From Teichococcus rhizosphaerae (lineage in GTDB: Bacteria > Pseudomonadota > Alphaproteobacteria > Acetobacterales > Acetobacteraceae), in the NCBI RefSeq assembly GCF_002631185.1, contig NZ_PDNU01000019.1:62001-126000 (forward strand): DNA of 64,000 nt, read 5' to 3'. Both the position numbers and the translations under genes were made by a program. The notes under the pieces are model-generated. The model made no database searches. It was not told the origin of the DNA and saw only the letters and a program-made list of their open reading frames with translations. This document shows, piece after piece, positions 1 through 16,185 of the stretch. Numbering within the stretch: the first letter of the stretch is position 1; every line of letters starts with the position of its first letter.

Positions 1-2852
1 ATGGCGCCGCGCCGCTGCCCGACGCACAGGGCTGGGAAGCGGCCTGCGCCGCGCCGGACCTGGAGCGGGCCTGGGTCTCGCCGCTGGGCTCGGCGCCCTG
101 GCCGGCCCTGCTGGTCGCCGCCCGCACGGCGCCCGCCGGGGCGGAGGCGGCGGCGCCGGCCGCGCCCGCCCGGCCCGCCACCCTGCAACTGCACCATGAC
201 GCGGCCAGCGCGCCGCTGGCCGAGGCGCTCGCCGCCGCCCTGTCGGGGGCCGGCGCCGGCGTCGCGGCGCTGCCGCTGGCGGCAGCCGGGCAGCAGCCGC
301 CGCGCGGCCTTTCGGGCGCGCATGTCGTGGCGCTGGCCGCGCCGGAGGCCGGCGCGCTGCCCGCCGCCCTGGCGCAGGTCACCGCCCTGGCCGAGGCGGC
401 GCGCGGCCGGGCACAGGCCTTCACCCTGGTCACCGCCGATGCGCGGTGCGCGCCGGAGGCGGCCGCGCTGCACGGCCTGGCCCGGGTGCTGACCAACGAG
501 ATGCCGGAGCTGCGGCCCCGCCGCATCGGCCTGGAGGCCGCGCTGGCGCCGGCCGAGGCCGCCGCCCGCCTGCTGCCCGAGCTGCTCGGCGCCGGGGCGG
601 AGCCGGAGCTGCGCCTGACCCGGGCCGCGCGCCTGGCACCCCGCCTGCGCCCCGGCGCCCGCCCCGCCCCCGCCGTGCCGCGGGGCCCGGCGCGGCTGGC
701 CATCCGCCAGCCCGGCCAGCTCGGCACGCTGGAATGGGAAAGCCTCACCCTGCCGCCGCCCGGCCCGGGCGAGGTGGTGGTGCGCGTCGAGGCCGCCGGC
801 CTCAACTTCCGCGACCTGATGTGGGCGCAGGGCCTGCTGCCGGAGGAGGCGCTGCTGCTCGGCTTCGCCGGCCCCACCCTGGGGATGGAGATGGCCGGCG
901 TGGTGGAGCAGGCCGGTCCCGGGGTCGACCTCCGGCCGGGCGAGGCGGTGTTCGGCTTCGCCCCCGCAGCACTTGCCAGCCGCGTGCGCACCCGCGCCGA
1001 GGCGGTGACGCGCGTGCCGCCCGGGCTGGACTTCGCCGCCGCCGCCACCGTGCCGGTGGCCTTCCTCACCGCCATCTACGCGCTGGAGCACTGCGCCCGG
1101 CTGGGGGAAGGCGAGACGGTGCTGATCCATGGCGGCGCCGGCGCCGTGGGGTTGGCCGCGCTGCAGGTGGCGCGCGCCGCCGGCGCCCGCATCGCCGCCA
1201 CCGCCGGCACGGCCGCCAAGCGCGCCCTGCTGCGCGCCGCCGGCGCCGAGCTGGTGCTGGACAGCCGCGACCCCGGCTTCGCCGACCAGCTTCGCGCCGC
1301 CTGGCCCGAAGGGGTGGACGTGGTGCTGAACTCGCTGGCCGGCGAGGCGATGGAGCGCAGCCTCGCGCTGGTGAAGCCCTTCGGCCGCTTCGTCGAGCTG
1401 GGCAAGCGGGACTTCTTCGAGAACCGCCGCGTCGGGCTGCGCCCCTACCGCCACAACCTCACCTATTTCGGCGTGGACGTGGACCAGCTGCCCAAGGCGC
1501 GGCCGGACCTGGCGCGGCGGCTTCTCGCCGACATCGCGGGCCGCTTCGCCGCGGGCGCGCTGCACCCGCTGCCGCACGCGAAGCGCCCGGCCACCGAGGC
1601 GGAGGCCGCCTTCCGCGCGCTGCAGGCCAGCAGCCATATCGGCAAGCTGGTGCTGGTGCCGCCGCCCGTGCCGCGCGCGGCGCCCCGCCCGGGCTGGACG
1701 CCGCCCGAGGGCACCATCCTGGTGGTGGGCGGCGTGCAGGGCTTCGGCTTCGAATGCGCCAAGTGGCTGGCGGCGCGCGGGGCGCGGCACCTGGCCCTGC
1801 TGTCGCGCCGCGGCGGCACCACGCCGGGGGCGGAAGCGGCGGTGACGGCGCTGGCGGCGCTCGGCGCCCGCGCCACCGTCCACGCGGCCGACGCCACGGA
1901 CGCGGCGGCGCTGGAGGCGGCGCTCGCCGCCATCCGCGCCGAGGGGCCGCCGCTGGCGGGGGTGGTGCACGCCGCCGCCGCCTTCGACGACGCCGCCGCC
2001 ATCGCGCTCGACGCGCGCCGCTTCGCCGCCGTGCTGGCGCCCAAGCTCGCCATCGCCGAGAACCTGGACCGGGCGACGCGGCGGGACCCGCTCTCGCTGT
2101 TCCTGCTGTTCTCCTCCGCCACCACGGCCATGGGCAATCCGGGCCAGGCCAACTACGTCGCCGCCAACATGGCGCTGGAGGCGCTGGCGCGGCGGCGCCA
2201 CGCGGAAGGGCTGCCGGCGCTGGCGGTGGGCTGGGGCCCGATCGCCGATGCAGGCGTGCTGGCCGGCGACGCCGCCACCGCCGAGACCCTGGCCCGGCGC
2301 CTCGGCGTCGAGCCCATGGCGGCGGTCGAGGCGCTCTCCGCCCTGCCCGCCCTGCTGGAAGCGGGCGCGCCGGTGCTGGGCCTCGCGCGCATCGCCTGGC
2401 GGGAAGCGCGCATGGCGCTGCCGGTGCTGGAGGAGCCGTTCTTCTCCGAGGTGCGCGGCCGCGCCGGGCAGGAGATGGAGGCGGCCAGCCTGCAGGCCCA
2501 CCTGCTGTCCCTGCCGCCCGAGGAGGCGCGCGCGCTGCTGCGCCAGGTGGCGCAGCAGGAGGTGGCGCGCATCCTGCGCCTGCCGCCCGAGGCGGTGCCG
2601 CTCGACGCCCCCGTGGCCGGCCTCGGGCTCGACAGCCTGGGCGGGCTGGAGCTGCGCGGCGCGCTGGAGCGGCGGCTCGGCATGCAGGTGCCGCTGGCCT
2701 CGGTGAGCGAGGAGCTGACCATCGACCTGCTCACCCGCAAGCTGGCGGACGGCCTGGCCGGCGGCCGCGACGAGGAGGCGATCGCCGGGCTGGTGGAGCA
2801 GTTCGAGCCCAGCGCCACCCCCGCCGCGCGGGCCGCCGAACCGGCCGCGTGA
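1..2852 (+). CDS. Type I polyketide/fatty-acid synthase, C-terminal part (ER-KR-ACP), 5' truncated by window edge
   Basis: The reading frame is open from base 3, so the gene starts before the window; about 949 residues are visible. Numbering from base 3, residues about 1-230 look like the structural part of a ketoreductase. Residues about 235-550 are an enoylreductase with NFRDLM and the NADPH loop HGGAGAVGLAALQ. Residues about 570-800 are a ketoreductase with FSS, NYVAAN and an FDD motif that suggests B-type stereochemistry. Residues about 840-925 are an acyl carrier protein with GLDSLGG, whose Ser (about residue 878) would carry phosphopantetheine. No thioesterase follows the ACP, so the chain is probably released by another protein, and the next gene is an alpha-oxoamine synthase. 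The glycine loop of the KR reads GGVQGFG rather than the usual GGLGGLG. Its neighbours match the rhizobial rkp-1 region, where RkpA is a similar multidomain synthase; that equivalence is an inference. Confidence 0.93.
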   Translation, partial: GAAPLPDAQGWEAACAAPDLERAWVSPLGSAPWPALLVAARTAPAGAEAAAPAAPARPATLQLHHDAASAPLAEALAAALSGAGAGVAALPLAAAGQQPPRGLSGAHVVALAAPEAGALPAALAQVTALAEAARGRAQAFTLVTADARCAPEAAALHGLARVLTNEMPELRPRRIGLEAALAPAEAAARLLPELLGAGAEPELRLTRAARLAPRLRPGARPAPAVPRGPARLAIRQPGQLGTLEWESLTLPPPGPGEVVVRVEAAGLNFRDLMWAQGLLPEEALLLGFAGPTLGMEMAGVVEQAGPGVDLRPGEAVFGFAPAALASRVRTRAEAVTRVPPGLDFAAAATVPVAFLTAIYALEHCARLGEGETVLIHGGAGAVGLAALQVARAAGARIAATAGTAAKRALLRAAGAELVLDSRDPGFADQLRAAWPEGVDVVLNSLAGEAMERSLALVKPFGRFVELGKRDFFENRRVGLRPYRHNLTYFGVDVDQLPKARPDLARRLLADIAGRFAAGALHPLPHAKRPATEAEAAFRALQASSHIGKLVLVPPPVPRAAPRPGWTPPEGTILVVGGVQGFGFECAKWLAARGARHLALLSRRGGTTPGAEAAVTALAALGARATVHAADATDAAALEAALAAIRAEGPPLAGVVHAAAAFDDAAAIALDARRFAAVLAPKLAIAENLDRATRRDPLSLFLLFSSATTAMGNPGQANYVAANMALEALARRRHAEGLPALAVGWGPIADAGVLAGDAATAETLARRLGVEPMAAVEALSALPALLEAGAPVLGLARIAWREARMALPVLEEPFFSEVRGRAGQEMEAASLQAHLLSLPPEEARALLRQVAQQEVARILRLPPEAVPLDAPVAGLGLDSLGGLELRGALERRLGMQVPLASVSEELTIDLLTRKLADGLAGGRDEEAIAGLVEQFEPSATPAARAAEPAA

Positions 2853-2915
2853 AACGGCCCTTCCGGCAGGGGGGGCGGTGCGGAGCGGCGCCGGATCGCC
2901 TATCTCCAGAGCCTC

Positions 2916-2939
2916 CCCCGCCGGCACGGGCCGGCGGGG
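2916..2939 (+). other. GC-rich hairpin between PKS and oxoamine synthase genes
   Basis: A perfect 9-bp inverted repeat (CCCCGCCGG / CCGGCGGGG) with a 6-nt loop lies 64 bases after the PKS stop. No T-tract follows, so it is not a standard intrinsic terminator. It may stabilise or punctuate the transcript between the two cluster genes, or simply reflect the very high GC. Confidence 0.35.
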
Positions 2940-3006
2940 CCTCGCCAATGAACGGACCGCATGGCATGACCCTCTCTCCCACCCGCCCCCGCCAGGGAGG
3001 CGTCGC

Positions 3007-4344
3007 GTGAGCGGCGGGCTCAGCACCAGCGCGCGGCTGGCCCTGCTGGCGCGGCTCTCCAAGCGCCGCAGCGGCGAGGCCCCGGCGCCCGAGGCCGGCA
3101 GCGCGCGCGACTTCACCACCCTGCCCGGGATGCGCGACTTCGGGCTGATGAAGGCGGCCCTGCAGTCGCTCGACCTGCCGAGCCCGCTGTTCCAGGGGCA
3201 TGACGGGCTGGCCGGCGCGCACAGCAGCATCGGCGGCCGCCCCGTCATCAACTTCAGCAGCTACAACTATCTCGGGCTGAACGGCGATCCGCGGGTGCTG
3301 GCGGCGGCCAAGGCGGCGGTGGACCGCTACGGCGTCTCCCCTTCCGGCTCGCGCATCCTTTCGGGCGAGCGCGAGCCGCACCGCGCGCTGGAGCGCGCCC
3401 TGGCCGAGCTGCACGGCACCGAGGCGGCGCTCACCTTCGTGTCCGGCCACGCCACCAACGTCACCACCATCGGCCATCTGATGGGCCCGCGCGACGTGGT
3501 GGTGCACGATGCCGCCATCCACAATTCCTGCGTCGAGGGCGCCCGCCTCTCGGGCGCCCGGCGCGTCCCCTTCCCGCACAACGACATGGCGGCGGCGGAG
3601 CGGGAGCTGGCGGCGGCGCGGCGCGGCGCGCAGGGGAAGTCAAGCCGCGCCCTGCTGCTGGTGGAGGGCCACTACAGCATGGACGGCGACAGCCCCGATC
3701 TCGCCCGCTGCGTCGAGATCGCCCGCCGCCACGATGCCTGGCTGATGGTGGACGAGGCGCATTCCCTCGGCGTGCTGGGCGCCACCGGCCAGGGCGTCGC
3801 CGAGGCGCAGGGGGTCGATCCCTCCGGCGTGGACATCTGGATGGGCACGCTCTCCAAGACCCTCTCGGCCTGCGGCGGCTACATCGCCGGGCGCGCCGAC
3901 CTGATCGACTGGATGCGGCACACCGCGCCGGGCTTCGTCTATTCCGTGGCGCTGCCGGCGCCGCTGGCCGCCGCCGCGCTGGAATCGCTGCGCATCCTGC
4001 GCGCCGAGCCGGAGCGGGTGGCGCGGCTGCGGGCCAATGGCATGGGCCTGCGCGACCGCCTGCGCGCGCGCGGCTTCGACACCGGCACCAGCCAGGGCAG
4101 CGCCGTGCTGCCGGTCATCCTCGGCTCCTCGGTGCGCACGGCGCGGATGGCCGCGGCGCTGCTGGAGCGCGGCATCTCGGTGCAGACCGTGACCTTTCCC
4201 GCCGTGCCCGAGCAATCCGCCCGGCTGCGCTTCTTCATCTCCTCCGAGCACAGCGAGGACGACCTCGACCGGGCGGCCGAGGCGCTGAGCGAGGCGGCGG
4301 CCAGCGTCGGGCGCGTGGAAAGCCTGCCGGGCGCCGGCATGTGA
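3007..4344 (+). CDS. Alpha-oxoamine synthase family PLP enzyme (AONS/serine palmitoyltransferase-like; RkpG-like)
   Basis: This 445-residue protein belongs to the fold-type I PLP enzymes that condense an acyl thioester with an amino acid to give an alpha-aminoketone (BioF, KBL, SPT, Fum8). Visible family marks are SYNYLGL near the N-terminus, VVHDAAIHNS (substrate/PLP histidines), VDEAHSLG (PLP-contacting Asp and His) and GTLSKTLSACGGY, with the Schiff-base Lys at about residue 284. The GTG at 3007 was chosen because AGGGAGG lies at the right distance upstream; the frame is open further upstream but has no family similarity there. It directly follows a PKS ending in an ACP without a thioesterase, so it likely takes the acyl chain from that ACP. 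RkpG of the Sinorhizobium capsule locus is the closest contextual analogue. Biotin synthesis (bioF) is less likely because no other bio gene is nearby. Confidence 0.9.
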   Translation: MSGGLSTSARLALLARLSKRRSGEAPAPEAGSARDFTTLPGMRDFGLMKAALQSLDLPSPLFQGHDGLAGAHSSIGGRPVINFSSYNYLGLNGDPRVLAAAKAAVDRYGVSPSGSRILSGEREPHRALERALAELHGTEAALTFVSGHATNVTTIGHLMGPRDVVVHDAAIHNSCVEGARLSGARRVPFPHNDMAAAERELAAARRGAQGKSSRALLLVEGHYSMDGDSPDLARCVEIARRHDAWLMVDEAHSLGVLGATGQGVAEAQGVDPSGVDIWMGTLSKTLSACGGYIAGRADLIDWMRHTAPGFVYSVALPAPLAAAALESLRILRAEPERVARLRANGMGLRDRLRARGFDTGTSQGSAVLPVILGSSVRTARMAAALLERGISVQTVTFPAVPEQSARLRFFISSEHSEDDLDRAAEALSEAAASVGRVESLPGAGM

Positions 4345-4375
4345 GCGGAAGGCGCGCCGGGGGCGCGGGCTGGCC

Positions 4376-5203
4376 ATGCGCATCGCCCTGCTGACGCTGG
4401 AAAGCGCGCTCAGCGCCGGGGCGGTGCTGCGGCTGGCCGGGGCGCAGGCGGGGCGCCTCGTGCTGATCGGCCGTTCCCTGCCCTACCGCGCCGCCACGGG
4501 CGGCATGGCCGGGCAGATGGCGGCCCACTGGCGCCGCTCCGGCCCGCGCTTCCTGCCCTACCTGCTGGTCAATTACGGCCTGCCGCAGGCGCTGGGCGAC
4601 CTGCGGCGCGCGCTCGGCGCGGGCGCGCTGAGCCGCCTCGCGCGGCGGCATGGCATCCCGCTGCTGGCGGTGGAGGACGTGAACGGCCCCGCCATGGCGG
4701 CGGCGCTGCGCGCGGCGCGGCCGGACCTCATCCTCTCCTTCCACTTCGACCAGATCCTGCGCGCGGAAACCCTGGCGCTGGCGCCGCTGGGCGGCATCAA
4801 CGTGCATCCCTCGCTGCTGCCTCGCCACCGCGGGCCGGTGCCGACGATCTGGGCGCTGGGCGAGGCGCCGCCCGCCTTCGGCGTGACCGTCCACCGCATG
4901 GTGCCGCGCATCGATGCGGGCGCCATCCTGGCCCAGCAGGCGGTGGCGCTGCCGCCCGGCACCACGGCCAGCACCGCCGCCCGCCTGCTGCACGAGGCCG
5001 GCGCCACGCTGCTCGGCCCGCTCCTGGCGGCGCTGGAGGCCGGCCCCGGCATGCCCGGCGGGGTGCCGCAGGAGCCCGCGGGCCCCGACGCCCCCTATTG
5101 CCCATTTCCCTCCGCCGGGGCATTGCGGAAGATGGCGCGGCAGGGCCAGCGGACAGTTGGCTGGGGGGACCTGCGGGCGGCTCTGGTCGCGCCCGTGGGG
5201 TAA
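4376..5203 (+). CDS. Formyltransferase-family protein (methionyl-tRNA formyltransferase-like, small-molecule type)
   Basis: This 275-residue protein has the N10-formyl-tetrahydrofolate formyltransferase fold. The catalytic Asn-His-Asp set is intact: Asn142 and His144 in INVHPSLLPRHRG and Asp180 in RIDAGAIL, with the spacing seen in PurN and Fmt. It is shorter than Fmt (about 310) and lacks an obvious C-terminal tRNA-binding domain, so a small amine or sugar amine is a more likely acceptor than tRNA. It lies 31 bases after the oxoamine synthase and before a capsule gene. A natural inference is N-formylation of the aminoketone lipid made by the two preceding enzymes, or of an amino sugar of the capsule. 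The acceptor cannot be read from the sequence. The ATG at 4376 begins the recognisable beta strand RIALLTLE. Confidence 0.85.
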   Translation: MRIALLTLESALSAGAVLRLAGAQAGRLVLIGRSLPYRAATGGMAGQMAAHWRRSGPRFLPYLLVNYGLPQALGDLRRALGAGALSRLARRHGIPLLAVEDVNGPAMAAALRAARPDLILSFHFDQILRAETLALAPLGGINVHPSLLPRHRGPVPTIWALGEAPPAFGVTVHRMVPRIDAGAILAQQAVALPPGTTASTAARLLHEAGATLLGPLLAALEAGPGMPGGVPQEPAGPDAPYCPFPSAGALRKMARQGQRTVGWGDLRAALVAPVG

Positions 5204-5297
5204 GGCGCGCCCGCGCCGGGGCGGCCTCCATCGCATCCCGCGCGGCCGGCCTACCGCCCGCATCCGCATCGCCGCAGACGAGAACCTGACGCCGCCG

Positions 5298-6584
5298 ATG
5301 AGCAGCTCCGCCGATCCGGCCCCGCGATCCTTCCTGTTCCTGCAGGGACCGATCACCCCCTTCTTCGACGAGGTGGGCGCGGGGCTGCGGGCACTGGGCC
5401 ACGAGGTGCGCCGGATCAACCTGAACCTCGGCGACAGGCTGTTCTGGCGCGGGCCGGGGGCGGTGGACTTCCGCGGCCGGCCCGGGGATTGGCCCGCCTT
5501 CGTGGCAGGGTTCCTCGACCGCCACGGCGTCACCGACCTGGTGCTGCTGGGCGAGCAGCGGGACTACCACAAGGTGGCCATCGCCGCCGCGCATGCGCGC
5601 GGCATCCGCGTCGCCACCACCGATTTCGGCTATATCCGCCCCGACTGGATCGTGCTGGAGCGGGACGGCATGAACGCCGCCAGCCTGTTCACCCGCGACC
5701 CGGAAACGATCGTGCGGACAGGGGCCGCCCTGCCGCCCCCCGACCTGACCGTGCGCAACAGGGACAGCTTCGCCCGGCAGGCGCGGTGGGACATGCTCTA
5801 CCACCTCAGCAGCGCCCTGCCCTGGCCCTTTCCGCACTACCGCACCCACCTGCTGCAGCACCCGGCGCTCTACTACGCCGGGGTCGGGCTGCGGCTGCTG
5901 CAGCGCGGGCGCGACAACCGCCGGGCGGACGCCATCCTGCGGCGCCTTTCCGGCAGCGGGCCGCTGTTCCTGATGGCGATGCAGATGGAGAGCGACTTCT
6001 CCATCCGCGCCTATTCCCGCTACCCCGACCTCGACACGGCGCTGCGCGAGGTGGCGGAAAGCTTCGCCGCCCACGCGCCGGCCGGCGCGCACCTGCTGGT
6101 GAAGGTGCACCCGCTGGACCCGGGGCTGAAGAACTGGCGGCGGCGCACGGAGAAGATCGCCCGGGCGGCGGGCCTGCCGGAGCGGATGCACTACCTGGGC
6201 GGCGGCAATCTCGGCGCCATCGTCGAGCAGGTGCAGGGCACCGTCACCGTCAACAGCACGGTCGGGCTGCGCTCGATCATCGACCACACCCCCACCTTCG
6301 CGCTCGGCGAGGCGATCTACCGCATCCCCGGCCTGGTCTTCTCCGGACCGCTGGACCGGTTCTGGACCGAGGCGACGCCGCCCGACCCCGCGCTGCGCGA
6401 GGGCTTCCTCCGCTGCATCGCGCACCAGCTCCACATCCGCGGCGTCTACTACAACCGGCCGGGGCTGGACGTGGCGGTGCGCGCGGCGGTGCACCGGCTG
6501 CACCATGGCCTGCTGAACGTGGCCGTGCCGGCGCTGATGCACCCCGCCGATCCCGGCTTCCCCGGCACCGCCGCCCCGCCCTGA
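5298..6584 (+). CDS. Capsular polysaccharide biosynthesis/export protein, KpsS/RkpJ-like
   Basis: This 428-residue cytosolic protein resembles the capsule polysaccharide synthesis family (KpsS, KpsC, RkpJ, LipB), whose best-studied members add beta-Kdo linker residues to a lipid acceptor before export. Supporting features are the N-terminal strand FLFLQGPITPFFDEVGAGL followed by LGHEVRRINLNLGD, a middle segment FLMAMQMESDFSIRAYSRY, the downstream VKVHPLDPG (a conserved HP motif of the family) and VNSTVGLRS, the sugar-nucleotide-binding-like motif near the C-terminus. No signal peptide or membrane span is seen. It is the last gene of the PKS-oxoamine synthase-formyltransferase run and sits 94 bases after the formyltransferase. 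The ATG at 5298 was chosen because similarity begins there; upstream codons in the frame overlap the previous gene. Confidence 0.82.
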   Translation: MSSSADPAPRSFLFLQGPITPFFDEVGAGLRALGHEVRRINLNLGDRLFWRGPGAVDFRGRPGDWPAFVAGFLDRHGVTDLVLLGEQRDYHKVAIAAAHARGIRVATTDFGYIRPDWIVLERDGMNAASLFTRDPETIVRTGAALPPPDLTVRNRDSFARQARWDMLYHLSSALPWPFPHYRTHLLQHPALYYAGVGLRLLQRGRDNRRADAILRRLSGSGPLFLMAMQMESDFSIRAYSRYPDLDTALREVAESFAAHAPAGAHLLVKVHPLDPGLKNWRRRTEKIARAAGLPERMHYLGGGNLGAIVEQVQGTVTVNSTVGLRSIIDHTPTFALGEAIYRIPGLVFSGPLDRFWTEATPPDPALREGFLRCIAHQLHIRGVYYNRPGLDVAVRAAVHRLHHGLLNVAVPALMHPADPGFPGTAAPP

Positions 6585-7707: not shown

Positions 7708-10244
7708 ACGAGGCGACGATGCCCCCCGAGGCGGACGCGGCGCGCCGCCGCGCCCAGGAGGAGCGGCTGGAACGCACCTGGGAAACGCCGCCCGGCTGGC
7801 GCTACTGGTCGGCGGTGAACAACACCGAGGTGGGGCTCTGGTACACCGCCACCTCCTTCCTGTTCTTCCTGCTGGCCGGCGCGCTGGCGCTGCTGGTGCG
7901 CGCCCAGCTCGCCGTGCCGGACAACGACCTGATCTCCGCCAGCCTCTACAACCAGGCCTTCACCCTGCACGGCACGGCGATGATGTTCCTCTTCGCCGTG
8001 CCGATCTTCGAGGCGGTGGCGATCCTGCTGCTGCCCACCATGCTGGCGGCGCGCGACCTGCCCTTCCCGCGCCTCTCGGCCTATGGCTACTGGTGCTTCC
8101 TGATCGGCGGCGTCTTCGTGATGGGCTCGATCCTGTTCAACTCGGCGCCCGATGCCGGCTGGTTCATGTACCCGCCGCTGACCACGGACCCGAAGCTCAC
8201 CGGCATCGGCGCCGACATCTGGCTGCTCGGCCTGTCCTTCATCGAGGTGGCGTCGATCGCGGCGGCGGTGGAGCTGATCGTCGGCGTGCTGAAGTGCCGG
8301 CCGCCGGGCATGCGCATCAACACCATGCCGCTCTATTGCTGGTACGTGCTGATCGTCGGCGGCATGATCCTGTTCGCCTTCCCGCCGCTGATCGCGGGCG
8401 ACATCCTGTTCGAGCTGGAGCGGCTGGCGGGCTGGCCCTTCTTCGACGCGAGCCGCGGCGGCGACCCGGTGCTGTGGCAGCACCTGTTCTGGATCTTCGG
8501 CCACCCGGAGGTCTACATCGTCTTCCTGCCCTCCATCGCGCTGCTGGCGATGATCGTGCCGACCTTCGCGAAGCGGCCGATCATCGGCTATTCCTGGATC
8601 GTGCTGGCGGCGGTGGGCACCGGCTTCCTCAGCTTCGGGCTGTGGGTGCACCACATGTTCACCACCGGCCTGCCCGCCATCTCGCTCGGCTTCTTCTCCG
8701 CCGCCTCCGAGGCGGTGGCGATCCCGACCGGCGTGCAGATCTTCGTCTTCGTCGCCACCATGCTGGCGGGGCGGATGACCCGCTCCACACCGATGCTGTT
8801 CGCCGCCGGGGCGCTCGCCATCTTCGTCTTCGGCGGGCTGACCGGCGTGATGGTGGCGATCGCGCCCTTCGACTGGCAGGCGCATGACAGCTACTTCGTC
8901 GTGGCGCACCTGCACTACGTGCTGATCGGCGGCATGGTGCTGCCGCTCTTCGCCGGCGCCTACTACTACTACCCGCTGGTGATGGCGCGGAAGCTCTCGG
9001 ACCGGATCGGCCGCTGGGTGTTCTGGCTGATGTTCCTGGGCTTCAACATCGCCTTCCTGCCCATGCACTTCACCGGGCTGCGCGGCATGCCGCGCCGCGT
9101 CTTCACCTATCCGGGCGGCATCGGCTGGGACTGGCTGAACCTCGTCTCCACCCTGGGCGCCGTGGTCTTCGCCGCCGGCGTGCTGCTCTTCACCTGGGAC
9201 GCGGTCTGGGGCATCCGCCGGCGGGCGGATTCGCCGCGCAACCCGTGGGGCGCCGGCACGCTGGAATGGCTGAACCCCATCCCCGGCCCCGATTACGGCG
9301 TGCGCAGCGTGCCCGCCATCGCCTCCCGCTACCCGCTCTGGGACGACCCGGAGCTGCCCCGCCGCGTGGATGAGGGCCGCGAGTTCCTGCCCGACGCCGA
9401 GGAAGGCAAGCGCGAGACCCTGGTCACCTCCGTGCTGGACGCCCGCCCCATCCAGTGCCTGCGCGTGCCGGGCAACAGCTTCATGCCGATGGCCGCGGCG
9501 GTGCTGACCGGCGCGGTGTTCATCCTCACCACCTTCCACCTCTACTGGACGGGGCTGGCAGTGGGCGTGGCCGCCATCCTGTCCATCCTGGTCTGGCTGT
9601 GGCGCGGCACGGCGATGGTGCCGGAGAAGCGGGAAAAGGACATCGGCCACGGCGTGCGGCTGCCGCTCTACGCCTCGGGCATCCAGTCGGTCGGCTGGTG
9701 GGCGATGTTCATCACCATGACCGGCGACATGACGGCCTTCGCCAGCCTGGTGTTCAGCTACTTCTACTTCTGGACCATCCACCCCGTCTTTCCGCCGCTC
9801 GACGCGGCGGGGATGAAGATGGGCCCCGGCCTGCTCTGGCCGGGCGTCGCGCTGCTCGCCGCGCTCGGCGCCTGGGGCGCCATGCTGTGGGCGCGGGCGC
9901 GCAACGGGGCGGGCCGGGCGGGCGGGCTGCGGCTCGGGCTGCTCGCCGCCACGCTGCTGGCGCTGGCCAGCGGCGGCGCCATGCTGATGGGCCCGTGGGC
10001 CGGCGGGCTCGACCCCACCACCCATGCCTATCCCGCCGCCGTCTGGGTGCTGCTGGGCTGGGCGGCGCTGCACCTCGCCGTCGGCGTCATCATGACGCTC
10101 TACGCGCTGGCGCGCAGCCTCGCCGGCAAGCTGACGCGGGATCACGACATCGACATCCACAACGTCGTGCTCTACTGGCACTTCGCCGCCATCACCGCGG
10201 TGGTGACGCTCGCCACCGTCGCGCTGTTCCCGCTGCTGGCCTGA
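7704..10244 (+). CDS. coxA: Cytochrome c oxidase subunit I fused to subunit III
   Basis: This 846-residue membrane protein joins the catalytic subunit I of a haem-copper oxidase to subunit III. In the first part, the low-spin haem ligand lies in HGTAMMFLF, the CuB/cross-linked region in FGHPEVYIVFLP, the CuB histidines in VHHMFTTG, and the a3/a haem ligands in HDSYFVVAHLHYV. The Glu of GHPEVY marks a type A1 proton pathway. The last 250 or so residues contain subunit III-type helices (WWAMFITMTGD, FSYFYFW, HIAVG-like LHLAVGVIMTLY and the final HNVVLYWHF). Separate CoxA is usually about 550 residues and CoxC about 200-260, so the length fits a clean fusion. The start ATG overlaps the coxB stop. 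Electrons would flow from cytochrome c through CoxB to oxygen here. Confidence 0.95.
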   Translation: MNEATMPPEADAARRRAQEERLERTWETPPGWRYWSAVNNTEVGLWYTATSFLFFLLAGALALLVRAQLAVPDNDLISASLYNQAFTLHGTAMMFLFAVPIFEAVAILLLPTMLAARDLPFPRLSAYGYWCFLIGGVFVMGSILFNSAPDAGWFMYPPLTTDPKLTGIGADIWLLGLSFIEVASIAAAVELIVGVLKCRPPGMRINTMPLYCWYVLIVGGMILFAFPPLIAGDILFELERLAGWPFFDASRGGDPVLWQHLFWIFGHPEVYIVFLPSIALLAMIVPTFAKRPIIGYSWIVLAAVGTGFLSFGLWVHHMFTTGLPAISLGFFSAASEAVAIPTGVQIFVFVATMLAGRMTRSTPMLFAAGALAIFVFGGLTGVMVAIAPFDWQAHDSYFVVAHLHYVLIGGMVLPLFAGAYYYYPLVMARKLSDRIGRWVFWLMFLGFNIAFLPMHFTGLRGMPRRVFTYPGGIGWDWLNLVSTLGAVVFAAGVLLFTWDAVWGIRRRADSPRNPWGAGTLEWLNPIPGPDYGVRSVPAIASRYPLWDDPELPRRVDEGREFLPDAEEGKRETLVTSVLDARPIQCLRVPGNSFMPMAAAVLTGAVFILTTFHLYWTGLAVGVAAILSILVWLWRGTAMVPEKREKDIGHGVRLPLYASGIQSVGWWAMFITMTGDMTAFASLVFSYFYFWTIHPVFPPLDAAGMKMGPGLLWPGVALLAALGAWGAMLWARARNGAGRAGGLRLGLLAATLLALASGGAMLMGPWAGGLDPTTHAYPAAVWVLLGWAALHLAVGVIMTLYALARSLAGKLTRDHDIDIHNVVLYWHFAAITAVVTLATVALFPLLA

Positions 10245-10257
10245 GGCGAGGCGCGCC

Positions 10258-10635
10258 ATGCTGATCCACAACCGCCGCCACGCCAATCTCTGGACCCTGC
10301 TGGCGCCGCCCGCCATCTGGGCGGTCCATTTCCTGCTCTGCTACGTCGCCGCCGCCATCGCCTGCGCCAAGGGCGGCGGGCCCTGGGTGGACCTCACATC
10401 GCTGCGCTGGGTCATCCTCGGCATCACCCTGCCGGCGCTGGGGCTGATCCTGGTGGCGGGGCGGCAGGCCCGGCGCCACTGGGGCTTCGGCACGGACGAC
10501 CCGCCGCACGACCAGGCCACCGACGAGGACCGCCAGCACTTCCTGGGCTACGCCACGCTGCTGCTCTGCGCGCTGAGCTTCGTCAGCGTCATCTTCGTCG
10601 CCATGCCGGCCATCACCATCGCGGATTGCCGCTGA
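10258..10635 (+). CDS. Small three-span membrane protein of the caa3 oxidase operon, function unknown
   Basis: This 125-residue protein is not one I can name. It has three hydrophobic segments (about residues 12-35, 50-68 and 93-116) separated by a charged loop rich in Asp, His and Arg (DDPPHDQATDEDRQH). It begins 13 bases after the oxidase subunit I-III gene, behind a GAGGCGAGG ribosome-binding site, and ends one base before the CtaG-like gene. The tight packing argues for a role in assembly or stability of the oxidase. It does not show haem or copper ligand motifs beyond scattered histidines. Confidence 0.8.
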   Translation: MLIHNRRHANLWTLLAPPAIWAVHFLLCYVAAAIACAKGGGPWVDLTSLRWVILGITLPALGLILVAGRQARRHWGFGTDDPPHDQATDEDRQHFLGYATLLLCALSFVSVIFVAMPAITIADCR

Positions 10636-10636
10636 G

Positions 10637-11284
10637 ATGGCCCCCCTCGCCATGCCGCTCGCGCTTCTGGTGCTGGCGCTGGTCTGGGGCGGGCCGCTGC
10701 TCCTGCTGCTGGAGCGCTCCTTCACCGGCCACATGGTGATGCACATGGGAGTGGTGGCGGTGGCCGCGCCGCTGCTCGCCATCGCGCTCGGGGCCAAACC
10801 CGGGGGCGGCGGACGGTGGGACCCGGCGCGGCGCTTCCCGCGCCTGTTCGGGCCGGTGGCGGCGTCGGGGCTGGAATTCGTCACCATCTGGGGCTGGCAC
10901 ATGCCGGGGCCGCACAACGCCGCCCGCGAATCCCTGGGCCTCATGGCGCTGGAGCAGGGCAGCTTCCTCGCCGTGTCGCTGCTGGTGTGGCTGTCCTGCC
11001 TCGGCGCCGGCGAGGCGGACCGGCGGCCGCGCCAGGCGGCGGGCGTCATCGGCCTGCTGCTCACCTCCATGCACATGACGCTGCTCGGCGCGCTGATCGC
11101 CCTCGCCCCGCGCCCGCTCTACGGTCACCCCGCCTGCCTCGGCCTGTCGCCGCTGGAGGACCAGGCGATCGGCGGCGTGGTGATGCTGCTGGTGGGCGGC
11201 GGCGCCTACCTCGCCGGCGGGCTGCACCTCGCCGCCCGCCTGCTGCGCGACCCCGAACCGACCCCCCAGGAGCCCGCCCGATGA
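10637..11284 (+). CDS. ctaG: Cytochrome c oxidase assembly protein, caa3_CtaG family
   Basis: This 215-residue polytopic membrane protein matches the CtaG family found beside caa3 oxidases (the Bacillus-type CtaG, not the periplasmic Cox11 copper chaperone). Family marks are the first helix ending in LERSFTGHMVMHM, the Trp/His-rich IWGWHMPG, the segment LTSMHMTLLGALI and the later LEDQAIGGVVMLLVGG. The conserved His/Met pairs (HMVMHM, MHMT) could bind copper, in keeping with a role in CuB site assembly; this is family-level inference. It starts one base after the preceding gene and its stop overlaps the start of the cytochrome gene (ATGA), so it belongs to the same operon. Confidence 0.88.
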   Translation: MAPLAMPLALLVLALVWGGPLLLLLERSFTGHMVMHMGVVAVAAPLLAIALGAKPGGGGRWDPARRFPRLFGPVAASGLEFVTIWGWHMPGPHNAARESLGLMALEQGSFLAVSLLVWLSCLGAGEADRRPRQAAGVIGLLLTSMHMTLLGALIALAPRPLYGHPACLGLSPLEDQAIGGVVMLLVGGGAYLAGGLHLAARLLRDPEPTPQEPAR

Positions 11285-12411
11285 TCATCCGCCTCACCCT
11301 CCGCCGCATCGGGCTGGGGCTGGCCGCGCTGCTGCTGGGCGGGCTGCTGGTCGGCTGGTCGGGCGTCATCTATGTGGGCGCCTCGGGCGGGCACTGGCCG
11401 GTCACCGAGTGGTTCCTGCACTGGGTGATGCGGAACTCCGTCCGCACCCGCGCGCTGGCGCTGGAGGTGCCGGACCTGTCCGGCCCCGCTTTGCTCGACC
11501 GCGGCGCCGGCCACTACGCCACCGGCTGCGCCCCCTGCCACGGCGCGCCGGGCGAGCGGCAGAACCCCATCGTGCAGGCTTCCCTGCCGCCGCCGCCCGA
11601 GTTCAGCAAGCGCTTCGACCCCTGGAAGCCGGAGGAGCTGTTCCGCATCGTCCAGCACGGGGTGCGCTACAGCGGCATGCCCGCCTGGGTCGCCATCGAG
11701 CGGCATGACGAGATCTGGGCCATGGTGGCCTTCCTGGAAAAGCTGCCGCGCATGCCGCAGGACGAGTACCAGCGCCTGGCCTTCGGGCCGGAGGGCGCGC
11801 GCCAGCCCAGCTCCGGCCTCATCGGCATCGGCGCCATCAACACCGGCGGCCCCGCGCCCCCGGCGCAGGAAGCGCTGGCCGACTGCGCCCGCTGCCACGG
11901 CATGGACGGGCGCGGGCGGGAGAACGACGCCTTTCCCGTTCTCGCCGGCCAGAGCGAGGCCTATCTGCGCGAGGCGCTGCTGGCCTTCTCCCACGGCACC
12001 CGCCACAGCGGCCTGATGCAGCCCCCCGCCGCCCGCGCGGACGACGCCATCCTGGGGCAGATCGCCACCCACTACGCGCGCCAGCCCTTCGCGCCCGTGC
12101 CGCATCCCCCGGCCGAGACGGCGCTGCTGGAGGAGGGCGAACGCATTGCCCGCCAGGGCATCCCGGCCGAGGGTGTGCCGGCCTGCCTGTCCTGCCACGG
12201 CGGCGCCGCGCTGGCGCGCAACCCCTCCTACCCGGCGCTGCACGGGCAGCATGCCAGCTACCTGGAGAACCAGCTCGTCCAGTGGCAGGCGGGCACGCGC
12301 GGCGGCGGCCCGTACCGGGACCTGATGGGGACCATCGCGGGGCGGCTGAGCCCGGAGCAGAACAAGGCGGTGGCCGCCTGGTTCGCGCGGCAGGACAAGG
12401 CCAGCGACTAG
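11281..12411 (+). CDS. Membrane-anchored three-haem cytochrome c
   Basis: The 376-residue protein has an N-terminal transmembrane helix (about residues 8-32, no clear cleavage site) and three CxxCH haem c sites: CAPCH near residue 83, CARCH near 202 and CLSCH near 302. Each lies in its own class I-like domain, with possible axial Met or His in YSGMPAW, HSGLMQP and the C-terminal domain. It is coupled to the CtaG-like gene by an ATGA overlap and is the last gene of the oxidase operon. It is probably the electron donor linking the quinol-oxidising chain, or periplasmic dehydrogenases, to the caa3 oxidase. Similar multi-haem subunits occur in alcohol dehydrogenases of acetic acid bacteria, but no dehydrogenase subunit is present here. 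A terminator repeat follows the stop within 10 bases. Confidence 0.88.
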   Translation: MIIRLTLRRIGLGLAALLLGGLLVGWSGVIYVGASGGHWPVTEWFLHWVMRNSVRTRALALEVPDLSGPALLDRGAGHYATGCAPCHGAPGERQNPIVQASLPPPPEFSKRFDPWKPEELFRIVQHGVRYSGMPAWVAIERHDEIWAMVAFLEKLPRMPQDEYQRLAFGPEGARQPSSGLIGIGAINTGGPAPPAQEALADCARCHGMDGRGRENDAFPVLAGQSEAYLREALLAFSHGTRHSGLMQPPAARADDAILGQIATHYARQPFAPVPHPPAETALLEEGERIARQGIPAEGVPACLSCHGGAALARNPSYPALHGQHASYLENQLVQWQAGTRGGGPYRDLMGTIAGRLSPEQNKAVAAWFARQDKASD

Positions 12412-12418
12412 GAAAGAT

Positions 12419-12463
12419 CCGGGGGAATGAATTCCCCCGGAGCCCCCTTCTTTTTTCTGCAAG
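12419..12463 (+). terminator. Intrinsic terminator, copy 1 of a dispersed hairpin repeat
   Basis: A perfect 10-bp arm repeat (CCGGGGGAAT / ATTCCCCCGG, 12419-12440) is followed by CCCCCTTCTTTTTTCTGC. It closes the cytochrome oxidase operon. The 21 bases at 12443-12463 recur without change at 58868-58888, and the hairpin recurs at four further places in the window. Confidence 0.8.
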
Positions 12464-12552
12464 TTCCCGGGCGCGCCTGCGGCGGCGCCGAACAAGGAAC
12501 CGCAGGCAGCAGCCCATGTTGCTGAAAGGAACAACGCGGGACACTCAGGATC

Positions 12553-13317
12553 ATGCAGCGCTTCACGGGCAAGGTTGTGGTGGTCACGGGCGCGGGATCG
12601 GGCATCGGAGAGGGCGCGGCGCGGCGCTTCTCGGCCGAGGGCGCCATGGTCGTGCTCGCCGGCCGCACCGAGGCGAAGCTGGCGCGGGTGGCCGCCAGCC
12701 TCGACCCGCAGCGCACCCTGGCCCATGCCGCCGACGTGTCGCGGCGGGAGGATGCGGAAGCGCTGGTCGCCGCCACGCTGCGGCGCTTCGGGCGGCTTGA
12801 CGTGCTGGTGAACAACGCCGGCACCGCCGTCACCGGCCCGCTGCTGGCGCTGGAGCCGGAAGACTGGCGCAAGGTCATGGCGACCGACCTGGACAGCGTC
12901 TATTTCTGCACCCGCGCCGCCCTGCCCCACCTGCTGGAGACGAAGGGCAGCATCGTCAACGTCTCCTCCGTCTCCGGCACGGGCGGGGACTGGAACATGA
13001 GCGCCTACAACGCCGCCAAGGGCGGGGTGACCAACCTGACGCGCTCCCTCGCCCTGGAGCTGGGCGAGAAGGGCGTGCGGGTGAACGCGGTGAACCCGAG
13101 CCTCACCCTCACCGAACTGACCGCGGACATGAAGGACGACGAGGCGCTGATGGCGAAGTTCCGCGAGCGCATCCCGCTCGGCCGGCCCGCCGAGCCGGCG
13201 GACATCGCGGGCGTCATCGCCTTCCTGGCCAGCGACGACGCCCGCTTCGTCACCGGCGTGAACCTGCCGGTGGATGGCGGCCTGTCCGCCTCCAACGGCC
13301 AGCCCCGCCAGGCCTGA
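12553..13317 (+). CDS. SDR family oxidoreductase
   Basis: This 254-residue protein is a classical short-chain dehydrogenase/reductase. It shows the cofactor loop TGAGSGIGEG near the N-terminus, NNAG, the catalytic Ser in NVSSVSG and Tyr-Lys in YNAAKGG, and a C-terminal FVTGVNLPVDGG typical of 3-oxoacyl-ACP reductase and glucose-dehydrogenase-like members. AGR in AGRTEAK after the second strand favours NADP(H). The substrate is not evident. It stands alone between the oxidase-operon terminator and the convergent pepN gene, so context does not help. Although the rhizobial rkp-1 locus includes an SDR (RkpH), this gene is separated from the capsule cluster by the oxidase operon and there is no reason to link them. 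Confidence 0.9.
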   Translation: MQRFTGKVVVVTGAGSGIGEGAARRFSAEGAMVVLAGRTEAKLARVAASLDPQRTLAHAADVSRREDAEALVAATLRRFGRLDVLVNNAGTAVTGPLLALEPEDWRKVMATDLDSVYFCTRAALPHLLETKGSIVNVSSVSGTGGDWNMSAYNAAKGGVTNLTRSLALELGEKGVRVNAVNPSLTLTELTADMKDDEALMAKFRERIPLGRPAEPADIAGVIAFLASDDARFVTGVNLPVDGGLSASNGQPRQA

Positions 13318-13340
13318 GGGCCCGGCGGGCGCGCCCCACC

Positions 13341-16004
13341 TCAGGCGGCGAGGCTTTTCGAGACCTTCTCGTAGGTGCCCTTGCTCAGCCCCGGCCGGGC
13401 GGCGATGCGCTCCAGCTCGGCCCGCATCCTCGCGCCCCGCGCCGCGTCCTGCCGCTTCCAGTGGCCGAGCGGCGAGACCATGCGCGCCGCCACCTGCGTG
13501 TTCACCGCGTCCAGCGCGATGACCATGTCGGCCAGGAAGCGGTAGCCCTCGCCCGACGCGGCATGGAAGGCGGCCGGGTTGCCGGCGGCGAAGGCGCCCA
13601 CCAGCGACCGCACGCGGTTGGGGTTGCGCAGGTCGAAGTCCGGATGGCGCGAGAGCGCCTCCGCCGCCGCGGCGTCGGTGCGCGGCGACATGGCCTGGAG
13701 GGTGAACCACTTGTCCAGCACCAGCGGCTCCTCCTTCCAGCGGGCATGGAAGGCGGCCAGCGCCTGCTCCCGCGCCGGGCTGTCGGAATCCACCAGCACC
13801 CGCAGCGCGGCCAGCGAGTCGGTCATGTTGGTGGCGCCCGCGAACTGCGCCTCGGCGCGGCCCGTCTCGCCCGCCGCGCCGAGATAGGCCAGCGCCGCGT
13901 TGCGCAGCGCCCGCCGGCCGATGGCGGCGCCGTCGGTCCGGTAGGGCCCGGCATCCGCCAGCGTCTCGTGCAGCGCGGCGAAGCGCGCGGCGAAGCGCCG
14001 CCCCAGCGCGCCGCGCAGGAACTGCCGCACGGCGTGGATCGCCTCCGGGTCGGCGATCGTCATCTGGTCGGCGATGAACTCCTCGGAAGGCAACGCCAGT
14101 GCCTCGGCGGCGAAGGCAGGGTCCTCCAGGGCACGGCCAAGCAGCGCGCCGGTGATGGCGGCCAGGCCTTCGGGCAGTTCCAGCGTGCGGCCGCTGAAGG
14201 CGGCATCGCCGGAAGCGTGAACCGCACGCTCAGCCTTCGGCTCCTGGGAGCGCAGTGCCTCCACCATCGCCAGCATGGTGGCGGTGGCGTATTGCTGCGA
14301 CGATTCCCAGCGGACGAAGGCATCCGTGTCGTGCGCGGCCAGGAAGCCGAGCTGCTCCAGCGTCAGGCCGGACAGCTTCACCGGCGCCGAGAAGCCGCGC
14401 AGCAGCGAGGGCACGGGCTTCGCCGCCAGCCCCTCGAACACGAAGTCCTGCTCGGCCTCCTCCAGCAGCAGCAGGCGGGGCTCCGCCACCTCGGCGCCTT
14501 CCGGCCCGATCAGCCCCATGGCGACCGGGACCGGCACGGGCAGCTTCTCCGGCTGGCCCGGCGTGGGCGGGGTGGATTGCGCGAGGGTCAGGGTGTAGCG
14601 GCCATCGGCGAAGGCTTCCCGCACCCGCAGCTCCGGCGTGCCGGCCTGGGCGTACCAGCGGCTGAAGCGCGACAGGTCGGTGCCCGAGGCGTCCTGCATG
14701 GCGCGGACGAAATCCTCGATCGTCACCGCCTGGTTGTCATGGCGGGCGATGTAGAGGTCCATGCCGCGGCGGAAGTTCTCCGCCCCGATCAGCGCGCGCA
14801 TCATGCGCACCACCTCCGCCCCCTTCTGGTACACGGTGGCGGTGTAGAAGTTGTTGATCTCCACATAGGAATCCGGGCGCACCGGATGCGCCATGGGCCC
14901 CGCATCCTCGGGGAACTGCGCGGCGCGCAGGCGGCGCACATCGGCCAGCCGCTTCACCGCCGCCGAACCCTGGTCGGCCGAGAAGTGCTGGTCGCGGAAC
15001 ACGGTCAGCCCTTCCTTCAGGGAAAGCTGGAACCAGTCGCGGCAGGTGACGCGGTTGCCCGTCCAGTTGTGGAAGTACTCGTGCGCGACGACGGTCTCGA
15101 TGCCCTCGTAGTCCATGTCGGTCGCCGTCTCGGGCCGCGCCAGGATGTATTTGGTGTTGAAGACGTTGAGGCCCTTGTTCTCCATCGCCCCCATGTTGAA
15201 GTCGGACACGGCGGCGATGTTGAACACGTCGAGGTCGTATTCGAGGCCGTAGGTCTCCTCGTCCCAGCGCATCGAGCGCTTCAGCGAGTCCATGGCGTGG
15301 CCGCAGGCATCCTCGTCGCCCCGGCGCACATAGATAGCGAGCGCCACCTCGCGGCCGGAGCGGGTGGTGAAGCTGTCCCGCACCGCCACCAGGTCTCCGG
15401 CCACCACGGCGAAGAGGTAGGAGGGCTTGGGGTGCGGGTCCACCCAGCGCGCCCAGTGGCGGCCATCGGGCAGCTCGCCCGCGCCGTCCGGGTTGCCGTT
15501 GGAGAGCAGCACGGGGCAGGCGGCGCGGTCGGCCTCCAGCGTGGTGGTGTAGCGCGCCATCACGTCCGGCCGGTCGGGGAAGTAGGTGATGCGGCGGAAG
15601 CCTTCCGCCTCGCACTGGGTAACGTAGTTGCCGCCCGAGAGATACAGGCCGGACAGCTCGCTGTTGGCCTCGGGCGAGATCTCCACCTCCGTCTCCAGCA
15701 CGGCCGCGTCCGGCACGCCCTCGATGCGCAGGCCGCCGCCGGGCAGGTGGCCCAGCCTGTCCTCCGGCAGCGGCGCGCCGTCCAGCACGGCGGAGAGGAG
15801 GCGCAGCGCCTCGCCATCCAGCTCCAGCGCGGCGGCGGCGCCGGCGGCATCCGGGTTGCGGCGCAGCGCCAGCCGGGCGCGCACCCGCGTGGCGGTGGGA
15901 TGCAGGGCGATGTGCAGGTCCACCTGCTCCACCAGGAAGGCGGGCGGCCGGTAATCCTCGCGGCGGATGGTGGGCGGGGGGGAAGGCTGGTCTGTGCTGC
16001 TCAT
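13341..16004 (-). CDS. pepN: Aminopeptidase N (M1 family zinc metallopeptidase)
   Basis: The 887-residue protein removes N-terminal residues from peptides in the cytoplasm. The exopeptidase motif GAMEN (MGAMENKGLNVFN) and the zinc site HEYFHNWTGNRVTCRDW followed by SLKEGLTVFRDQ give the complete HExxH-x18-E signature. Length is close to E. coli PepN (870), and the C-terminal part contains the DUF3458-type domains of that subfamily. The ATG giving MSSTDQPS at 16004 was chosen because the family's N-terminus aligns from there; an in-frame ATG ten codons upstream lacks a ribosome-binding site. The gene converges on the SDR gene with only 23 bases between stops and diverges from the HAD gene. Confidence 0.95.
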   Translation of the reverse strand: MSSTDQPSPPPTIRREDYRPPAFLVEQVDLHIALHPTATRVRARLALRRNPDAAGAAAALELDGEALRLLSAVLDGAPLPEDRLGHLPGGGLRIEGVPDAAVLETEVEISPEANSELSGLYLSGGNYVTQCEAEGFRRITYFPDRPDVMARYTTTLEADRAACPVLLSNGNPDGAGELPDGRHWARWVDPHPKPSYLFAVVAGDLVAVRDSFTTRSGREVALAIYVRRGDEDACGHAMDSLKRSMRWDEETYGLEYDLDVFNIAAVSDFNMGAMENKGLNVFNTKYILARPETATDMDYEGIETVVAHEYFHNWTGNRVTCRDWFQLSLKEGLTVFRDQHFSADQGSAAVKRLADVRRLRAAQFPEDAGPMAHPVRPDSYVEINNFYTATVYQKGAEVVRMMRALIGAENFRRGMDLYIARHDNQAVTIEDFVRAMQDASGTDLSRFSRWYAQAGTPELRVREAFADGRYTLTLAQSTPPTPGQPEKLPVPVPVAMGLIGPEGAEVAEPRLLLLEEAEQDFVFEGLAAKPVPSLLRGFSAPVKLSGLTLEQLGFLAAHDTDAFVRWESSQQYATATMLAMVEALRSQEPKAERAVHASGDAAFSGRTLELPEGLAAITGALLGRALEDPAFAAEALALPSEEFIADQMTIADPEAIHAVRQFLRGALGRRFAARFAALHETLADAGPYRTDGAAIGRRALRNAALAYLGAAGETGRAEAQFAGATNMTDSLAALRVLVDSDSPAREQALAAFHARWKEEPLVLDKWFTLQAMSPRTDAAAAEALSRHPDFDLRNPNRVRSLVGAFAAGNPAAFHAASGEGYRFLADMVIALDAVNTQVAARMVSPLGHWKRQDAARGARMRAELERIAARPGLSKGTYEKVSKSLAA

Positions 16005-16185
16005 GGCTCGCCCTGAACTCACGCGGAAAGGCATGCACTATGGCGCCGCCCGCCCGCCGCGCCCAGCGGCCCCGCGCGTGGCGGCCCAGCGGCGGCGGAC
16101 CTGCGCGCGGCGGGCCGCATTCCGCGCTTTTCCCGCGGCCCTCCGGCATGGCACCGTGTCCCCGATCGGCTTCCGGAGAGACGCG

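Follow-up and report, generated by a model that had tools for sequence, protein, structure and literature searches.

The 64,000 nucleotides of Teichococcus rhizosphaerae DNA analysed here, referred to as the window (C25:62001-126000, with C25 standing for contig NZ_PDNU01000019.1 of a 4.65 Mb genome in 113 contigs), open with a gene module for a type I polyketide synthase (PKS), an alpha-oxoamine synthase (AOS), a formyltransferase (FT) and a capsule protein of the KpsS/RkpJ type. On the whole we favour the reading of this module as an rkp-type capsule pathway to which a step of N-capping has been added, with a formyl group as the cap in this organism and a fatty acyl group in its relatives. 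The type of pathway is a known one, and its new element is probably the capping step together with the exchange of the enzymes that would perform it. This reading draws on gene content, domains, motifs, synteny, co-occurrence and the swap of the formyltransferase for an N-acyltransferase, all of which are observed in the genomes compared below.

A previous sequence-only reading had described the visible end of the PKS as carrying enoylreductase, ketoreductase and acyl carrier protein domains and no thioesterase, which holds for the whole gene including its upstream flank. The complete PKS is a single open reading frame (ORF; C25:57332-64852, 2506 aa) that begins 4.67 kb upstream of the window, is monomodular as in the rkp-1 and wcb-type loci and, by Pfam (E<=0.01), carries ketosynthase, acyltransferase, dehydratase, enoylreductase, ketoreductase and acyl carrier protein domains (KS-AT-DH-ER-KR-ACP) with no thioesterase match at that threshold. 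The true start is probably later, because the beginning of the ORF overlaps the gene of a GT4 glycosyltransferase (C25:55951-57387), upstream of which Pfam identifies a 2-hydroxyacid dehydrogenase; no gene for chain release was seen in this upstream stretch. The motifs TACSSS, DPQQ and HGTGT, GHSVGE with YAFH, HRLGGEPVLP, GGAGAVG, GGVQGFG and NYVAAN, and LGLDSL are intact, and we take them to be the active-site motifs of their respective domains. Judged by its domain content, the synthase is fully reducing. The interval between the DH and ER domains (residues ~1300-1560; C25:61200-62000 and the start of the window) contains a methyltransferase-like LEIGA motif with no Pfam match and is probably a vestigial methyltransferase domain. 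Membership in the swf family of sponge symbionts, which is described with reductase and sulphotransferase partners and with changes in the DPQQR and HGTGT motifs (PMC3908369), was rejected, as this PKS keeps DPQQ and HGTGT.

Directly 3' of the PKS, as in rkp-1 and wcb-type loci, lies the RkpG-like AOS, open from 2878 to 4344 with the GTG at 3007 as its likely start. Its GTLSKTL and VDEAHS motifs are kept in alignment with Spt, BioF, Kbl and the Sinorhizobium meliloti protein, and it stays below the NCBIfam cut-offs for bioF (338 of 426 bits), glycine C-acetyltransferase (307 of 460), serine palmitoyltransferase (SPT; 292 of 500) and 5-aminolevulinate synthase. In a 75-row AOS tree, which does not include the S. 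meliloti protein as a row, 63 rows of the window's kind form a starred set (99/94) that excludes E. coli BioF, Kbl, Spt and the two AOS paralogues of the same genome, one of which (L143) is the sister of E. coli BioF. An identity as BioF was rejected on the equivalog cut-off and the separate tree position, and an identity as Spt of the ceramide type on the SPT cut-offs. A PKS match accompanies the AOS in 60 of the 63 loci; two others (L245, L247) are cut off by a contig end, and one (L158) has none in 20 kb. That the AOS releases the chain from the PKS, as had been suggested, fits the domains and the lack of both a thioesterase and an upstream release gene.

Several AOS loci are arranged differently. 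In L157 (G076; 9357-16491) the order is FT-PKS-AOS, the PKS match is in pieces, stop codons are reported inside the AOS match, and the copy may be decaying or misassembled. The AOS genes of L178, L248 and L249, from a neighbouring clade, lack a PKS match and cluster with a short-chain dehydrogenase/reductase (SDR) and an N-acyltransferase of the YghO type, which looks like a separate sphingoid or ceramide-type cluster in Acetobacteraceae. On a plasmid of Streptomyces anthocyanicus (L266, 5299-10122) a 51% AOS match lies inside a 4.8 kb gene beside an MMPL transporter, and on plasmid p3 of Planktothrix agardhii (L267, 1-7122) a 45% match is part of a gene whose annotation is type I PKS; both may be AOS-terminated synthases outside capsule loci.

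The formyltransferase had been noted for an intact Asn-His-Asp set, and N142, H144 and D180 proved invariant in 32 of 32 aligned sequences, the window's own and 31 relatives. Together with the Formyl_trans_N domain, this places it in the superfamily of 10-formyl-tetrahydrofolate-dependent formyltransferases, where it remains under the cut-offs of all seven NCBIfam models matched; the housekeeping Fmt was rejected at 94.9 bits against an equivalog score of 201.5. ArnA, Fmt, sugar 4-N-formyltransferases and the F domain of gramicidin synthetase have the same domain and triad, whereas the enzyme considered here sits with AOS and SDR partner genes. Equally, the KpsS/RkpJ-like protein, as such part of the rkp-1 and wcb-type gene set, is Capsule_synth by Pfam, as anticipated, but its score on the NCBIfam model for KpsS is only 171 against a cut-off of 600.

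A gene-neighbourhood search in named genomes, for which the best 80 of 109 formyltransferase relatives were kept, gave 11 loci (L045-L055) with at least 48% identity over most of the protein. The closest among these 80 belongs to Pseudoroseomonas aestuarii (86% identity), while the other 69 have a shorter match of at most 45% identity, are mostly from Pseudomonas and are presumably ArnA-like. PKS, AOS, FT and KpsS genes follow each other in nine named loci (L045-L053), of which L048 contains insertions and L049 shows frame breaks, and the arrangement is therefore not due to chance. Of the remaining two, L055 combines AOS and PKS with the formyltransferase, and L054 the KpsS-like protein, with no AOS found in its 11 kb contig. 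None of the findings that the sequence-only reading had named as speaking against it was obtained, as there is no thioesterase, the AOS does not group with BioF and the co-occurrence of the four genes is conserved.

Table 1. Genes and domains of the module at the start of the window (window coordinates) and the evidence for their assignment.
Feature	Position	Strand	Evidence
PKS gene, 3' part (type I, RkpA-like)	1..2852	+	37.5%/44% identity (two pieces) to PKS of the S. meliloti rkp-type locus
Enoylreductase domain, PKS residues 1811-2108	762..1655	+	PF08240, PF00107, PF13602
Ketoreductase domain, PKS residues 2127-2305	1710..2246	+	PF08659 E=1.1e-52; GG..G.G, NY..AN motifs
Acyl carrier protein domain, PKS residues 2408-2467	2553..2732	+	PF00550 E=5.9e-9; Ser in LGLDSL
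Alpha-oxoamine synthase (AOS), RkpG-like	3007..4344	+	Aminotran_1_2 E=2.7e-52; 47.8% identity to S. meliloti AOS; tree
Formyltransferase (FT), 275 aa, N142/H144/D180; predicted N-capping slot	4376..5203	+	Formyl_trans_N E=5.8e-21; co-occurrence with AOS
KpsS/RkpJ-like Capsule_synth protein, 428 aa	5298..6584	+	PF05159 E=2e-67; 45.8% identity to S. meliloti capsule protein

The distribution of formyltransferase, AOS, Capsule_synth and N-acyltransferase was followed in the same 200 Acetobacteraceae genomes, with only the best first-look candidates per genome scored, so that absences are not absolute. Positive were 36 genomes for the formyltransferase (E<=1e-20), 62 for AOS (E<=1e-75), 74 for Capsule_synth (E<=0.001) and 81 for the N-acyltransferase profile (E<=1e-20). 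AOS is present in 35 of the 36 formyltransferase genomes as compared to 62 of 200 overall (Fisher p=6e-21, the relatedness of the genomes overstating independence). Among genomes with Capsule_synth, the formyltransferase occurs in 28/50 with AOS and in 0/24 without it (Fisher p=5e-7, with independence equally overstated by kinship), and among genomes with AOS it occurs at no different rate with Capsule_synth (28/50) and without (7/12). By these counts, the formyltransferase depends on AOS rather than on the capsule proteins. Formyltransferase and AOS are both present in one sampled genome and both missing from another in each of three genera (g20, g26, g33). A class-wide draw of 385 genomes gave the formyltransferase in four, the own genome and three others, which are among 16 other genomes positive for AOS; two of these three matches are only 35-38% identical, over part of the protein.

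A second line of evidence concerns the genomes of the family with AOS and without the formyltransferase. In 15 of the 20 such genomes fetched, out of 27, the gene directly after AOS encodes a member of a single protein family (called at 349-434 codons, ~380 aa), which is not the case in the other five (G011, G042, G096, G123, G150). Among the 62 AOS genomes, a formyltransferase is found within 500 bp of AOS in 28, this N-acyltransferase in 15 and both in none; counted over whole genomes, one or the other occurs in 57 of the 62. Both versions exist inside the genus of the window, with the formyltransferase in G000 and G107 and the N-acyltransferase in G016 and G162. When the two states are placed on the AOS tree (20 formyltransferase rows, 16 N-acyltransferase rows including L164 from outside the family), at least eight changes are needed, while 500 shuffles of the states gave a mean of 12.1 changes (range 7-16) and a value as low as that observed in six. 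Judged by this difference, the state shows some clustering on the tree but has switched several times, with the reservation that support for a number of inner branches is weak.

The family of the N-acyltransferase in this slot is settled by comparison with YghO of E. coli BL21(DE3), to which it is 32% identical over 377 aa (E=7e-58; hhalign over 368 columns with probability 100), and on sequence it is a member of the YghO family. In published work, ECD_02850 has been proposed as the sphingolipid N-acyltransferase that makes dihydroceramide in the E. coli cluster (PMC9386255), and CC_1154/bCerS is the N-acyltransferase of Caulobacter (PMC11324152, PMC11087976); YghO was equated with ECD_02850 by its position in the cluster and not by a locus tag. 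The 16 slot enzymes form a set of their own (99/99) apart from YghO and seven other copies. Pfam gives at most a sub-threshold GNAT match, in two of four proteins, and a search for solved relatives gave only weak GNAT matches (E>=0.2). Relatives of the N-acyltransferase occur elsewhere in the genome in 5 of the 36 genomes with the formyltransferase (G021, G063, G121, G138, G172). One of these genomes carries, besides the capsule-linked module, a set of the ceramide type (L253, G021:C106, 9590-14033) with a YghO-like protein (45%), Spt (50%) and matches to AcpR and AasR.

The tracking of AOS by the formyltransferase, and its exchange at one position for a YghO-family N-acyltransferase, speak for the amine predicted to be made by AOS as the acceptor of the formyl group, and the aminolipid proposed by the sequence-only reading gains support from the same observations, with the N-formyl product and the anchor as its deduced parts. 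Loci in which AOS does not lie alongside may provide a second link of the enzyme to this amine: in seven of them (L054, L055, L147, L148, L153, L166, L262) the formyltransferase adjoins an SDR, and in Methylobacterium bullatum (L262) the SDR stop overlaps the formyltransferase start. In L149 (8865-10419) and L151 (1-1525), on the other hand, AOS or SDR is replaced as the neighbour by a gene of cluster c15, of which Pfam, applied to the L147 member only, identifies that member as a CDP-alcohol phosphatidyltransferase, a lipid-type enzyme.

The remaining genes of a capsule pathway are found on another contig (C44) of the genome. There, the second Capsule_synth protein of the genome is KpsC-like and occurs with Poly_export (KpsD-like) and ABC2_membrane (KpsM-like) proteins, between which lies a protein with no Pfam match that would be KpsE by position; an ABC ATPase was not called in this Kps stretch. 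Directly behind KpsC, an SDR (C44:29992-30744) is 61% identical to the SDR of Pararoseomonas baculiformis, the runner-up in the genome reaching 41%. In P. baculiformis (L052) these parts are united in one stretch of 20.8 kb in the order GT-PKS-AOS-FT-KpsS-SDR-KpsC-KpsM-KpsT-KpsE-KpsD-GT (GT, glycosyltransferase; KpsE by position). Equally, genes of the KpsM, KpsE and KpsD type adjoin the module in L152 and L154, the latter also with KpsC. Downstream of the KpsS-like gene, the window reads, by its sequences, as a cytochrome oxidase region.

Combining these elements, the following pathway can be proposed; its chemistry, the choice of amino acid, whether reduction precedes capping and the function as an anchor are all inferred from the genes. 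An iterative, fully reducing PKS would produce a long saturated acyl-ACP, which the pyridoxal phosphate-dependent AOS, standing in for a thioesterase, would condense with an amino acid to a 2-amino-3-ketone, a sphingoid-like base. The ketoreductase-like SDR encoded behind KpsC might then reduce the ketone, and the formyltransferase would add a formyl group from 10-formyl-tetrahydrofolate to the 2-amino group, while in close relatives an N-acyltransferase of the YghO/bCerS family would put a fatty acid on the same amine. The capped lipid would be glycosylated by KpsC and the KpsS-like protein, by the upstream GT4 enzyme or by all three, and could serve as primer and anchor of a polysaccharide for export through a KpsMTED-type system. 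We lean slightly towards the term 'capsular sphingolipid' for such a product, meaning a capsule of the Kps type whose anchor is a sphingoid base made by the PKS and N-capped by a formyl group or a fatty acid, the latter a capsule ceramide, with two enzymes having traded one operon position several times.

With the rkp-1 locus of S. meliloti and the Burkholderia-type wcb locus, the module has the PKS, AOS and KpsS-like proteins and probably an SDR in common. The comparison with rkp-1 made by the sequence-only reading is borne out by the S. meliloti locus used here (L261, CP090106.1), which has the order PKS (7.5 kb)-AOS-SDR-sulfatase/lipoteichoic acid (LTA) synthase-like (30% to c13)-capsule protein and identities of 37-48% to the PKS, AOS and KpsS-like proteins of the window; its record of 3.7 Mb is titled plasmid pSymB but by size resembles a chromosome or merged replicon. 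As the record contains no rkp names, the genes are presumed from their order to be rkpA, rkpG, rkpH, rkpI and rkpJ, and some roles of the Burkholderia wcb genes are likewise assumed. For the sulfatase/LTA synthase-like gene in the RkpI position, the window genome has no convincing counterpart. The SDRs of the relatives L052 and L055 are only 30-32% identical to that of S. meliloti. In Caballeronia and on a Pseudomonas plasmid, the PKS-AOS core occurs with deacetylase-like, LTA synthase family, phytanoyl-CoA dioxygenase-like and short GNAT genes. The latter plasmid (pL21564-1, L264), typed as mobilizable, carries a PKS-AOS-KpsS-KpsC locus with the LTA synthase-like, phytanoyl-CoA dioxygenase-like and short GNAT genes, and the PKS-AOS capsule module may thus travel, with other tailoring genes. 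The bacterial ceramide pathway of Caulobacter and E. coli BL21 (Spt, AcpR, AasR, CerR, bCerS/YghO) shares condensation of the AOS type, reduction of the ketone and N-capping; here, however, the acyl chain would be supplied by an iterative PKS that carries its own ACP, an SDR stands against the epimerase-type CerR of E. coli and a formyltransferase would do the capping. The window genome gave no N-acyltransferase match at E<=1e-20, and AcpR and AasR have no match in the window's locus (L010), the rest of the genome not having been searched for them.

Several observations weigh against the capping reading. The formyltransferase adjoins neither AOS nor SDR in three loci (L149, L150, L151), and one genome with the enzyme (G012, 86% complete) has no AOS match, its formyltransferase beginning at contig base 6. 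In L158 (G072, 8388-11682) AOS, FT and KpsS stand together with no PKS match in the 20 kb fetched. Neither capping enzyme is present in 5 of the 62 AOS genomes (G006, G096, G128, G150, G178), 13 of the 16 other AOS genomes of the class-wide draw have no formyltransferase match, and the S. meliloti locus has no match to the formyltransferase, to two N-acyltransferase queries or to YghO, and so capping is not essential; for the one locus examined, the absence from S. meliloti agrees with the previous view that the formyltransferase is not part of the rhizobial set. Conversely, 54 of the 81 genomes with the N-acyltransferase are without this AOS, and only the slot clade is tied to it. A search for an RkpI-like protein in the window genome gave no more than a match of 39 bits that overlaps the SDR stretch. 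The largest doubt concerns the role of the lipid as capsule anchor, as seven genomes with formyltransferase and AOS have no Capsule_synth match, so that the lipid may in some cases not serve a Kps capsule. In G171 and G111, a distance of 18-24 kb separates AOS and formyltransferase on the same contig, genes for export, a glycosyltransferase or a methyltransferase lie in between or close by, and the genome has no Capsule_synth match, which is why the aminolipid may also serve another polysaccharide.

These seven genomes also favour the alternative that the N-formyl or N-acyl sphingoid is a free lipid of the membrane, of use to the envelope and not a covalent capsule anchor, as do the lipid-type c15 gene beside the formyltransferase in L149 and L151 and the fact that E. 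coli KpsS acts on lyso-phosphatidylglycerol. We regard this as fairly unlikely, since a KpsS-like gene comes after the formyltransferase in the nine named loci and, at most of the 15 slot loci but not L228 and L232, after the N-acyltransferase, and the Spt-AcpR-AasR-YghO-type set of G021 is separate, the module not being its only sphingolipid-like pathway; furthermore, by its title alone, a 1997 paper by Kiss reportedly ties rkpGHI and rkpJ to capsule production. A different role for the formyltransferase, namely formylation of an amino sugar of the capsule as by ArnA, VioF and QdtF-type enzymes and unrelated to the lipid, is compatible with its family: the closest solved relatives, matching from residue 83 on only, are ArnA domains (E=2e-27), followed by sugar and tRNA formyltransferases, the gene lies in a capsule locus and glycosyltransferases are near some relatives (L147, L153). 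It is unlikely, since the enzyme follows AOS and not Capsule_synth, adjoins AOS in 28 genomes and an SDR in seven further loci and is replaced in its slot by a YghO-family N-acyltransferase in 15 genomes, never with both present, and since no amino-sugar enzyme turned up among seven further ORFs of L052 (whole genomes were not searched for such pathways). Signals and natural products are also among the products of AOS enzymes, and relatives with 45-51% identity occur in Streptomyces and Planktothrix genes for which the stretch shown contains no capsule genes, which weighs against the capsule context and might suggest that PKS and AOS make a small diffusible secondary metabolite in an incidental capsule neighbourhood. 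The recurrence of PKS-AOS with capsule-type genes in Acetobacteraceae, Methylobacterium, Sinorhizobium, Caballeronia and on a Pseudomonas plasmid makes this highly improbable.

In the open-access literature searched, no description was found of an N-formyl sphingoid lipid with a formyltransferase, nor a report of oxoamine synthase, polyketide synthase and formyltransferase together, and to our knowledge the lipid made by RkpA/RkpG-type genes has not been established. The capping swap provides a concrete structure to be tested, a 2-amido-3-keto or 3-hydroxy long-chain lipid, with a candidate enzyme for each version. As formyltransferase and N-acyltransferase versions exist inside one genus, the product can be compared between sister strains. 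The rkp-type capsule pathway with N-capping would link group-2-like capsules, iterative polyketide synthases and bacterial sphingolipids, which are usually handled separately, and the enzyme of the window would be a formyltransferase with a probable lipid acceptor.

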